Assembly: GCA_001803565.1 (NCBI GenBank)
Contig: MHDQ01000195.1
Location: forward strand, 1 to 5,022
Source of the DNA: Nitrospinae bacterium RIFCSPLOWO2_12_FULL_45_22
GTDB lineage: Bacteria > 2-12-FULL-45-22
DNA length: 5,022 nt
Direction: 5' to 3'
Shown: piece after piece, positions 1,710-5,022 of the stretch
Position numbering within the stretch: the stretch's first letter is position 1
Layout: each line of letters starts with the position of its first letter
Notes under the pieces: model-generated
What the model was told of the DNA's origin: nothing
The model's database searches: none
The model's input: only the letters and a program-made list of their open reading frames with translations
Made by a program: the position numbers and the translations under genes

Positions 1710-1805
1710 GTATAACGATAGAGTTCACCTGACGCCAACACTACAGGGCACAAACCTTTGAAAAACCACACGCTGTTGGCGGTCAAGTGTAGCGATTTGT
1801 TATGT
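1710..1805 (-). other. attC recombination site closing cassette 3
   Basis: On the minus strand the R'' box ACATAAC (1805-1799) and the R' box GTTATAC (1716-1710) enclose an imperfect stem. The arm CGCTACACTTGACCGCCAAC pairs with the reverse complement of GTTGGCG.CAGGTGAAC. A one-base bulge in the left arm (GACCGCC against GACGCC) fits the extrahelical bases that set attC polarity. The apical part (about 1741-1770) is less paired. It shares the CACTTGAC arm with the attC at 2216-2310. The site begins 50 bases past the stop of the cassette 3 gene. Confidence 0.8.
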
Positions 1806-1854
1806 GGCCACCTTTCAAATAGACCCCTAATGGCACCTAAATATGTTTGCCTAT

Positions 1855-2178
1855 TCAGGGCTTCAGGAAAGCGACAGCCAAGGAGCATAGCGAAATAAAC
1901 AATGCTACTATGGACATCCACATAGAAATTCTCCACCTTCTGTCCGATTTATTTTCATTTATTGTTTTTGCTATTAAGGCACCCATACAAGTATTCGCTT
2001 CCCACCAAGTCTCGTTGAGCTGATTATGCAGCTCTTTTACTTTTGCAAAATCCTTCCTATTTTCGGCTTGTTCTCGTATTAATAGTCCAATTTTCTGCCC
2101 TAGATTTTCAACCCTCCTTTTCTCCTCACAGTCTGGGAAATTGGCTAGGTCTGGCAAAAAAGCAGGTTGGTTAGACAT
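1855..2178 (-). CDS. Tail-anchored membrane protein with coiled-coil-like region (cassette 3)
   Basis: This is a 107-aa protein of unknown function. Residues about 17-62 are charged and helical (EEKRRVEN, REQAENRKDFAKVKELHNQLNETWWE), likely a coiled coil. Residues about 85-104 form one strongly hydrophobic segment (WMSIVALFISLCSLAVAFL) ending KP at the C terminus, so the protein is probably anchored by its tail with the helical part in the cytoplasm. The ATG at 2178 is preceded by AAGGA at a spacing of about eight bases and lies 38 bases after the cassette boundary. The frame stays open upstream to 2466, but that extension reads through the attC hairpin and a tRNA fragment, so I reject it. 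It is the only gene in its cassette. Confidence 0.75.
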   Translation of the reverse strand: MSNQPAFLPDLANFPDCEEKRRVENLGQKIGLLIREQAENRKDFAKVKELHNQLNETWWEANTCMGALIAKTINENKSDRRWRISMWMSIVALFISLCSLAVAFLKP

Positions 2179-2215
2179 TGTATTGTTCCTTCTCAAATTT
2201 TCATGCTGTGATGCC

Positions 2216-2310
2216 ACATAACGGGCAAGGTCACTTGCGCTGCCAATGACCCCTTGCTGCCCGTCAAGGCCGCAGACGTTCTCGGCGTCAAGTGAACCGC
2301 CTAGTTCGGC
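2216..2310 (-). other. attC recombination site between cassettes 2 and 3
   Basis: On the minus strand the R'' box GCCGAAC (2310-2304) and the R' box GTTATGT (2222-2216) enclose the arms GGCGGTTCACTTGACGCC and GGCAGCGCAAGTGACC. They pair through TCACTTG/CAAGTGA with an extra A and an extra T bulged on the left arm, as expected of attC. The middle (about 2245-2280) is G+C-rich and can fold further. The polarity of the bulges agrees with minus-strand cassettes. It lies about 340 bases after the stop of the cassette 2 gene, unusually far. Confidence 0.75.
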
Positions 2311-2329
2311 AATTTTCTGTATATGAAAT

Positions 2330-2358
2330 TGGCGGGGCGTGGGGGAATTGAACCCCCA
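2330..2358 (-). tRNA. 3' tRNA fragment (T arm, acceptor strand, CCA); not a full tRNA
   Basis: On the minus strand GGGGG-TTCAATT-CCCCC forms a perfect T arm matching the GGTTCRANYCC box. It is followed by exactly seven acceptor bases (ACGCCCC), a discriminator G and CCA. The spacing is that of a genuine tRNA end. No matching GGGGCGT, D arm or anticodon arm is found at the normal distance. A GGGGCGG at 2439-2433 is too far away and does not fully pair. Such 3' ends are typical attachment-site remnants of genomic islands. The amino acid cannot be assigned. It sits inside cassette 2. Confidence 0.5.
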
Positions 2359-2423
2359 GCGCTCACTCCCATATTTTAAGGGTATTATTTTGGGAAACTT
2401 ACCTCCTCCCGCAGTGATGGGTA

Positions 2424-2534
2424 TCACCCAGACCGCCCCAGAAGCGCTGTCCCCGCCGCTACGCACATCATCAAGATAGTTGAAACCATAATGCTTGCCT
2501 CCATTTTGATGTTCACAGTTACAAACAACGACAT
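2424..2534 (-). CDS. Possible hydrophobic micro-protein in cassette 2
   Basis: A short frame ends at TGA 2424. Three in-frame ATGs are possible, at 2534 (36 aa), 2504 (26 aa) and 2489 (21 aa). The last has GGAGG eight bases upstream and would give a peptide containing STILMMCVAAGTALLG, essentially one membrane-spanning helix. I do not recognise a family. Small hydrophobic peptides like this can be type I toxin-like or accessory membrane proteins, but nothing here proves that. It follows the nuclease gene on the same strand after about 110 bases and is in the same cassette. It may equally be chance, given its length. Confidence 0.3.
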   Translation of the reverse strand: MSLFVTVNIKMEASIMVSTILMMCVAAGTALLGRSG

Positions 2535-2647
2535 AGAGGTGACGATTTCAACTGAGAGAGCGCAGAGATTCCCCAAGAAAATACCCAAATAAGGGCTATT
2601 CTATCTTCAATTTCATATAAATTTTAATTACCGTCTACAAGTATAAG

Positions 2648-3430
2648 TCATTTCAAACAGTTATACGTTTTACTATATAGAAACGTCCCTTCTCTGCTAG
2701 GGTAGCCATGGTAGAGCACATTTTCACGATCCGTGAATGAAGTTGCCCAGAACACAGAGTGGAACAAGTCGTAACCCGTGGTATTAAGTAAAGCCTTCCG
2801 TGCATCCTCTGCGCTGCCGAAACCATAAGCATCATATAAAACGAGAAAAATTCTCGGACACTGAGCTGGAACTCCTTTGTTTTCAAGTTTCATTCGTTTC
2901 TTAGTCACAGCCTCCTGGATAAGCCCTTGAAGTTCGTTGTGAATTTCACCTTCCCATTTTGCTTCAGGTACTTTACCTAGACCAACGGCAGCACCAGTGG
3001 CAAATAACTTTTGGATACTCAAGTGCCCTTGCTTTTCATCCAACAGCAAGGTTTCTACTGTGGATTCTTCTGAGCCAGTATCTCGAATAAACAAGAGAGC
3101 GTTCTTACAAAGTTCACGCCATTCTGCAGTATTTTGGCGCGGAAGGTTCGGGTGCCTTTTTACGTGTAACCAATATGTGCCAATCAAGCACCCTTCATCG
3201 GTGGCGCTCTTATTCACTACATCTTTGAAAGTTGTACAGGCCGCATGATACGCCTGTTCATTGACAATGCTTGTGACTTCTACTGCATATCTTTGACCAT
3301 CAAGATCGATCCAAAAATCGGGAGGGTCGTTTGGTTCCCGATGAACTTTAACATCCTGGTATCCACAATAATGTTTCAGTTTGTGTGCCAAAGAATCAAC
3401 ACAGACGAGTTCCTCATCAATACGATTCAT
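2648..3430 (-). CDS. PD-(D/E)XK-like nuclease-fold protein (cassette 2)
   Basis: This is a 260-aa protein. Near the N terminus PPDFWIDLDGQRYAVEVTSI (residues 36-55) has the layout of the PD-(D/E)XK core: PD at 37-38, a beta hairpin, then ExT at 51-53 (EVT). In this superfamily the second acidic residue and a following Lys bind metal and help cleave DNA. Here Thr replaces Lys, a variation seen in some families, so activity is uncertain. A later strand CPRIFLVLYDAYGF (191-204) after a helix with KKRMKLENKG is also typical of these uncharacterised proteins. ATG 3430 has AAGGAG six bases upstream and lies 33 bases after the cassette boundary. No methyltransferase or partner subunit is adjacent, so a classical restriction-modification role is not supported. 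An orphan defence or repair nuclease is an inference. Confidence 0.7.
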   Translation of the reverse strand: MNRIDEELVCVDSLAHKLKHYCGYQDVKVHREPNDPPDFWIDLDGQRYAVEVTSIVNEQAYHAACTTFKDVVNKSATDEGCLIGTYWLHVKRHPNLPRQNTAEWRELCKNALLFIRDTGSEESTVETLLLDEKQGHLSIQKLFATGAAVGLGKVPEAKWEGEIHNELQGLIQEAVTKKRMKLENKGVPAQCPRIFLVLYDAYGFGSAEDARKALLNTTGYDLFHSVFWATSFTDRENVLYHGYPSREGTFLYSKTYNCLK

Positions 3431-3462
3431 CTAGTTCTCCTTTTTGTTACTTCGGATCCCAT

Positions 3463-3534
3463 GCCGAACGCTGGAGCTGAGACGCGGGAAACGCGCCAGC
3501 GTTTTCCCGTCGATTCTCCAGCGACTTGTTAGCC
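3463..3534 (-). other. attC recombination site between cassettes 1 and 2
   Basis: On the minus strand the R'' box GGCTAAC (3534-3528) and the R' box GTTCGGC (3469-3463) enclose a strong stem. CGCTGGAG (minus strand, 3523-3516) pairs perfectly with CTCCAGCG (3476-3469). Further inside, CGGGAAAACGC (minus strand, 3509-3499) pairs with the GCG-TTTCCCG arm at 3494-3485 apart from one unpaired base. The stop codon TAA of the upstream gene lies inside the R'' box, a common cassette arrangement that confirms polarity. At 72 bases it is shorter than the other two sites and of a different sequence family. Confidence 0.85.
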
Positions 3535-4179
3535 CTTAGACCTAAACACCGGCCTGTTGAGAATGCCGTGAAGTGTGCCCTTACCGGAGATGACCTCTCT
3601 ACAAGTCCTCTCAATATCGTCTACGATCTTGTCCAGCCGAGGATTGATGGGGTCTTCCTCCTGTAAACCTTCCCAGAACACTGCCTCATGTTTTTCAACA
3701 CTTCTTTGATGCTGCTCCCATTGTTGCTCGATTCTGAAGTTTTCGCGTGCCCATAGCCTGGCAAGCATTCTTGCCGAGACAATTATCTCGCTAACAATCC
3801 TCCGCAAATCATCAAAAGGCTTTGCTTTGTCTTTTCCAATTTGAGCCATGAAACGATACCGCATGGCATGCAACCTATTAAAAAGTTCCTGGTGATCGTT
3901 GTACCGTTTAAACACAACACTTGCGTTCTTTCGAGCCTCGTAAGAAGTCTTAGACTCATGTTCACCTTTTTCAATAGACTCAGTTTCGCTGGAATAACTT
4001 GCCGGGTGTCGAATATGCCGGATCGCATCTCCCGCCTCATAGAAGAGAGCCAGGGTCTCCTCAGCGAGCTCAATCTGCCTTCTTCCCCTGTGCTCTCGTC
4101 TCCATGAATCAATGCCGTAGATAGCAACCCAGGTTCCGATAAGAACTGATGCATCTCGTAGTGTTCCAATCCAGTCCAT
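3529..4179 (-). CDS. N-terminally membrane-anchored helical protein of unknown function (cassette 1)
   Basis: This is a 216-aa protein. Residues about 8-23 (RDASVLIGTWVAIYGI) form a short hydrophobic anchor, followed by the basic DSWRREHRGRRQ and then a long helical, charged domain (ETLALFYEAGDAIRHIR; KRYNDHQELFNRLHAMRYRFM; DLRRIVSEIIVSARMLARLWARENFRIEQQWEQHQRSVEKHEAVFWE). From memory, proteins beginning with a membrane segment and W-RREH-GKRQIELAE are scattered hypothetical genes in mobile regions, with no known function. The cytoplasmic part is probably a helical bundle. ATG 4179 has GGAG five bases upstream. The TAA stop overlaps the R'' box of the attC. I see no enzyme motif. Confidence 0.8.
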   Translation of the reverse strand: MDWIGTLRDASVLIGTWVAIYGIDSWRREHRGRRQIELAEETLALFYEAGDAIRHIRHPASYSSETESIEKGEHESKTSYEARKNASVVFKRYNDHQELFNRLHAMRYRFMAQIGKDKAKPFDDLRRIVSEIIVSARMLARLWARENFRIEQQWEQHQRSVEKHEAVFWEGLQEEDPINPRLDKIVDDIERTCREVISGKGTLHGILNRPVFRSKG

Positions 4180-4195
4180 ACGTACTCCAAAGAGG

Positions 4196-4202
4196 GGCTA
4201 AC
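4196..4202 (-). other. Orphan core box GTTAGCC opening cassette 1
   Basis: Minus-strand GTTAGCC lies 17 bases before the ATG at 4179. It is the exact reverse complement of the R'' box GGCTAAC closing the same cassette, as predicted for a cassette boundary. No attC hairpin is visible immediately upstream, so it may be the right half of an attI or of a decayed attC. Confidence 0.6.
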
Positions 4203-4741: not shown

Positions 4742-5022
4742 TTGATTACATTACACAAACCTCATTCCCCTTTTAAAAAGGGAGAAGATGCTATTTTTAC
4801 GATTTTTCAGCAGGGTGATTATGACGCTATCTGTAGTGATGACAAGAGATTTGTAAAAAGGTTACGCTTTTTTAATATTCCGTATATAACCCCTGCGGTA
4901 TTTATTGCAATTTTATTTAAAAATGGCAAATTAACAATACCTGAGGCTATGGAAAAACTGGATTCCTTGTCACCGTTTGTCAGTGATGAAGAATACAGCG
5001 CAATTAAAGCAATTTTAGGAAG
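4742..5022 (+). CDS. PIN-domain-like protein, 5' part unusual, runs off the window end
   Basis: From TTG 4742 the frame is open to the edge (93 codons). KGEDAIF (residues 13-19) and YDAICSDDKRFVKRL (27-41) match the central Glu and the later Asp-Asp motif of PIN nucleases. NIPYITPAVFIAILFKNGKLT (45-65) and a C-terminal EKLDSLSPFVSDEEYSAIKAIL match the end of the domain. PIN proteins such as VapC toxins are metal-dependent RNases. The usual N-terminal strand with the first catalytic Asp (VDTNV-type) is absent, and an in-frame TGA lies at 4724-4726. GGAG six bases before TTG gives a possible start, but 5' truncation at an insertion is as likely. The low G+C contrasts with the DNA just upstream. 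Confidence 0.6.
   Translation, partial: MITLHKPHSPFKKGEDAIFTIFQQGDYDAICSDDKRFVKRLRFFNIPYITPAVFIAILFKNGKLTIPEAMEKLDSLSPFVSDEEYSAIKAILG

Follow-up and report, generated by a model that had tools for sequence, protein, structure and literature searches.

A three-cassette array, very probably of integron origin, on a 5-kb contig of a Nitrospinae draft genome

Gene content of the contig and the three cassettes

The window analysed here is the entire contig C195 (5022 bp), which comes from an 85% complete draft genome (3.67 Mb, 321 contigs). The minus strand of the contig carries ORFs of 216, 260 and 107 codons, and each of them is followed by an attC-like site. All cassettes run in the same direction and contain one ORF each, with the attC shortly 3' of it. 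Cassettes 1 and 3 are compact, whereas cassette 2 has a tail of 337 bp. No confident family was obtained for any of the three ORFs in Pfam, PADLOC, NCBIfam or PHROGs.

Cassette 1 (733 bp, 3469..4201, minus strand) is delimited by putative G^TT cut points and encodes a protein of 216 aa (3529..4179, minus strand), the TAA stop codon of which lies inside the R'' box. By our own reading the protein probably has an N-terminal membrane segment. A plasmid search detected distant relatives of it on 3 plasmids with 27–38% identity, and no relatives of the cassette 1 and cassette 2 proteins were found in the viral contigs searched. Cassette 3 (506 bp, 1716..2221, minus strand, putative cut points) encodes a protein of 107 aa (1855..2178, minus strand), in which we read a C-terminal membrane segment.

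Cassette 2 (1247 bp, 2222..3468, minus strand, cut points likewise putative) encodes a protein of 260 aa without a known family (2648..3430, minus strand). Its PDFWIDL...YAVEVTS stretch looks like a PD-(D/E)XK-like core, which may serve as a lead. The single-sequence structure model of this protein reached a pLDDT of 47 and was too poor for searching. The plasmid search gave nothing for it, and there was no match in one related genome of the same order.

The tail of cassette 2 contains a structured segment (2318..2621, minus strand) whose ends form a perfect 12-bp inverted repeat (2320-2331/2608-2619) and which includes a hairpin resembling a tRNA T-arm. After this T-arm-like hairpin, GGGGGTTCAATTCCCCC, come an acceptor-like strand and CCA, and a cloverleaf is absent. 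A functional tRNA gene was considered for the tail and rejected, as a permissive Rfam search found no tRNA in it and, as its only match, 17 nt of a partial tmRNA; neither ARAGORN nor Rfam at gathering scores gave matches over the window. With the ends set at the inverted repeats, the tail folded with z of -4.2 and -5.3 versus shuffles, and 300-nt windows placed across it regardless of these ends gave z of -0.6 to -1.7 on the minus strand. Because the windows that ignore the inverted ends do not fold better, the choice of ends may have produced the fold signal. No relatives of the tail were found. It is doubtful that the segment 2318-2621 of the minus strand is a structured non-coding RNA gene of about 300 nt closed by the 12-bp helix. 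If it were, the integron would move an RNA gene besides the protein gene of cassette 2.

Several further features were observed outside the array. The gene at 206-767 has an apparent frameshift near 590-628, and this apparently broken gene is flanked by a 17-bp inverted repeat, GTGTCCCC...GGGGACAC (173-189 and 772-788; region 173-788), of which a one-mismatch pattern search detected no further copy in the genome. Between a lipoprotein-like gene and the array lies an imperfect 26-bp inverted repeat (1464-1557), AAGGATCACATCTTAA.../...TTAAGATGTGACCCTT, with a fold z of -4.2 on the minus strand for a 300-nt window over the repeat. At the contig end, a partial ORF on the plus strand (4742-5020) resembles, by our own reading, the C-terminal part of a PIN-domain protein; the Pfam search gave no match for it.

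Box pairs and attC sites

The preliminary description of this DNA had stated that each cassette opens with a 7-mer that is the exact reverse complement of its own closing R'' box. Reading the sequence and checking it by script proved this correct to the base for 3/3 cassettes. On the minus strand, the R'-type box GTTAGCC (4202-4196) opens cassette 1 and pairs with GGCTAAC (3534-3528), the R'' of attC1; GTTCGGC (3469-3463) opens cassette 2 and pairs with GCCGAAC (2310-2304); and GTTATGT (2222-2216) opens cassette 3 and pairs with ACATAAC (1805-1799). The last R' of the array is GTTATAC (1716-1710). Two accompanying statements were also borne out: the boxes are not matched inside a single attC, where 2/4, 1/4 and 2/4 of the variable bases agree, and the R' boxes depart from GTTRRRY at one position in each.

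The significance of the box match was estimated in several ways. When the three heads and three tails are paired in all possible arrangements, one of six gives three exact matches. For a null based on the genome itself, R' and R'' were paired randomly among 66 candidate sites of the genome, 3 of which are in the window; the probability of a 4/4 match was 0.039, which corresponds to about 6e-5 for three of three. The value assuming free bases is 6e-8. On other contigs, 13 of 32 intervals between neighbouring sites matched 4/4 versus about 1 expected, some of these 32 intervals spanning a missed site or including a false one. Such a match is the textbook outcome of G^TT cutting in R'. The pattern thus strongly supports cassettes that moved as circles cut in R', although the earlier wording that it arises only in this way was too strong. 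The box match is a property expected of every integron cassette and no peculiarity of this array.

For an independent view of the attC sites, the covariance model R1 was built from 9 attC sites that lie elsewhere in the same genome, on other contigs; the window sites and the twin of attC1 were left out. The loops were trimmed before building, since whole-site MAFFT alignments misplaced the palindromic stems. In the window, R1 gave three matches, all on the minus strand, and no others. They fall on 3463..3534 (attC1, 72 bp, E 1e-3), 2216..2310 (attC2, 95 bp, 28.2 bits, E 1e-5) and 1710..1805 (attC3, 96 bp, the last site of the array, 24.9 bits, E 7e-5), which is where the preliminary description had expected covariance matches. 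The score of attC1 was only 20.4 bits, and this was counted against the integron reading. A search with the filters off missed the three window sites and was not used; the miss is probably due to a mode that does not allow long loop inserts or limits match length. The loops of the window sites are 32–47 nt.

The alignment and the pair counts revealed the R''/R' boxes, the L''/L' stem and the unpaired extra base in L'' that are features of attC sites. In attC3 the extrahelical base of the bottom strand stems from an additional C in L''. The single-strand fold of attC1 on the plus strand, which is the bottom strand, had a z of -4.5, and those of attC2 and attC3 were no better than shuffles. The stem pairs covary, with 99 cells changed on both sides versus 37 expected and a covariation score of 0.393 versus 0.130 for shuffled and 0.03–0.11 for slid alignments; the alignment behind these values was fitted to the structure and contains a few wrong-strand twins.

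As an outside control, R1 was run on 42 named public loci carrying intI, which were oriented with intI on the plus strand. Of the 51 matches, 50 lay upstream of intI and, being on the minus strand, diverged from it, which is the canonical position of a cassette array. These results indicate that R1 recognises attC and not generic hairpins.

Integrase genes and attC sites elsewhere in the genome

No match to intI was found on the contig. The term integrase-less, used in the preliminary description, thus holds for these 5 kb but is false for the organism, as the genome has complete intI genes. Two were found, on C243 (467 bits) and C304 (439 bits), at a cut-off of 265. They are 57% identical to each other, and the closest public relative found for the pair is 81% identical and belongs to a Desulfobacteraceae MAG. 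Broken intI genes are present on C115, C136 and C317, and C-terminal pieces on C287, C95 and C106. The last three (L027:9372-9509, L028:6479-6622 and L029:4809-4940) match the last 40–50 IntI residues only. Two 596-bp blocks, L020:12129-12724 and L022:8560-9155, are 83% identical and each contains an intI relic. These two relics have a common internal deletion (residues 126-268) and, rather than diverging from the nearby attC sites, share their direction.

The remaining genome, where the earlier description had proposed looking for intI and more attC sites, thus holds both, and attC candidates amount to about 60 on about 30 contigs. C304 carries its complete intI together with a divergent array of at least 6 attC sites, one of which (C304:608-679) is identical to attC1 at 68 of 72 positions. 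Three of the four differences are in the R boxes and one is in the loop. No relatives of the window cassette proteins were found among the loci compared. As the draft is 85% complete and split into 321 contigs, C195 or C304 may have been binned in error.

Origin of the array and comparison with known systems

The box pairs, the R1 matches and the near-identical attC in the intI-bearing C304 array uphold the earlier assignment of the array to an integron. We are highly confident that it consists of three integron-captured cassettes forming a CALIN, which was either filled by a remote integrase or left by a decayed integron. In this reading the cassettes follow one another head to tail along the minus strand, with an attC closing each, and each would once have been a circle. 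IntI would cleave the folded bottom strand of an attC site between the G and the TT of R' and join the cassette into the site ahead, so that its first seven bases, the reverse complement of its own R'', complete the preceding R'. Most likely, either the cassettes were placed by an IntI encoded elsewhere in the genome into a site other than a canonical attI, or they are the remnant of an integron after loss of intI and attI. That the genome's IntI enzymes act on the window attC sites is inferred, as is how the array came to its present place.

The shortness of the boxes, together with two of the three sites folding no better than shuffles, could suggest chance GTT/AAC matches flanking ordinary intergenic hairpins. 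This explanation is extremely improbable, since it is contradicted by covariance matches at the exact coordinates, by the identity of attC1 to the C304 attC, by the low probability of three box matches against the genome's own boxes and by the behaviour of R1 beside public intI genes. It is also unlikely that the array is part of a complete integron that the contig end simply truncates. CALINs are overstated in draft genomes, and 820 bp lie between the first cassette, which opens at 4202, and the upstream contig end, but no attC or intI was found in these 820 bp, and they have no match in the remaining genome. The upstream end of the array is therefore contained in the contig. Unless an insertion has parted the array from its own intI, it is a true CALIN.

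Under either of the two routes named in our preferred reading, the array is still an integron product. Delivery in trans by IntI into a non-classical chromosomal site of the attG type, where the array never had its own intI, has close to an even chance of being correct. It is favoured by the two complete intI genes elsewhere, by the wide spread of attC candidates over the contigs and by the upstream DNA without an attC or intI remnant, compared with 276 bp between intI and the first cassette in the C243 integron. According to PMC8618304, a CALIN can arise when an IntI encoded elsewhere inserts cassettes off target, when intI is lost, or through rearrangement; insertion at attG sites is the form of the first route described in PMC12901181, citing Loot et al. 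2024. Neither an attI nor an attC was recognisable upstream of the first cassette, a point that the preliminary description had not discussed and that counts against the integron reading as a whole; against delivery in trans, this end could just as well be an attI or attC in decay. A tentative but serious alternative is that a complete integron once stood here and that deletion or rearrangement removed its intI and attI, leaving the present array. The broken intI genes on six contigs point to frequent intI loss in this genome, and such loss is itself among the published routes; against it, the contig contains no intI fragment and the upstream DNA is unmatched elsewhere in the genome.

The array shows that an integron product is recognisable in raw sequence by box logic alone, and it adds three further cassettes, none with a known protein family. 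With its two complete and several decayed intI genes and its many attC candidates, the genome is suited to studying how cassettes spread from an integrase.

Among known systems, the nearest within the same genome is the C304 integron, which shares the nearly identical attC and the same box rule within cassettes; it differs in having intI, which is absent from the window contig. Insertion of the attG type, as outlined in PMC12901181, resembles the present case in that cassettes lie at a place without a recognisable attI while intI is elsewhere, and differs in that the site is known here in its occupied state alone. Because the contig lacks intI, and so the adjoining integrase gene of a complete integron, the array is by position a CALIN, the IntegronFinder category for attC clusters lacking an integron-integrase. 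It agrees with this category in having three attC sites at spacings of 506 and 1247 bp and cassette genes in one direction, and it shows no difference in kind, the assignment resting on a 5-kb contig with 820 bp upstream and 1709 bp downstream of the array. The array is thus real, correctly recognised and ordinary in kind, as CALIN is already a named and well-described class.
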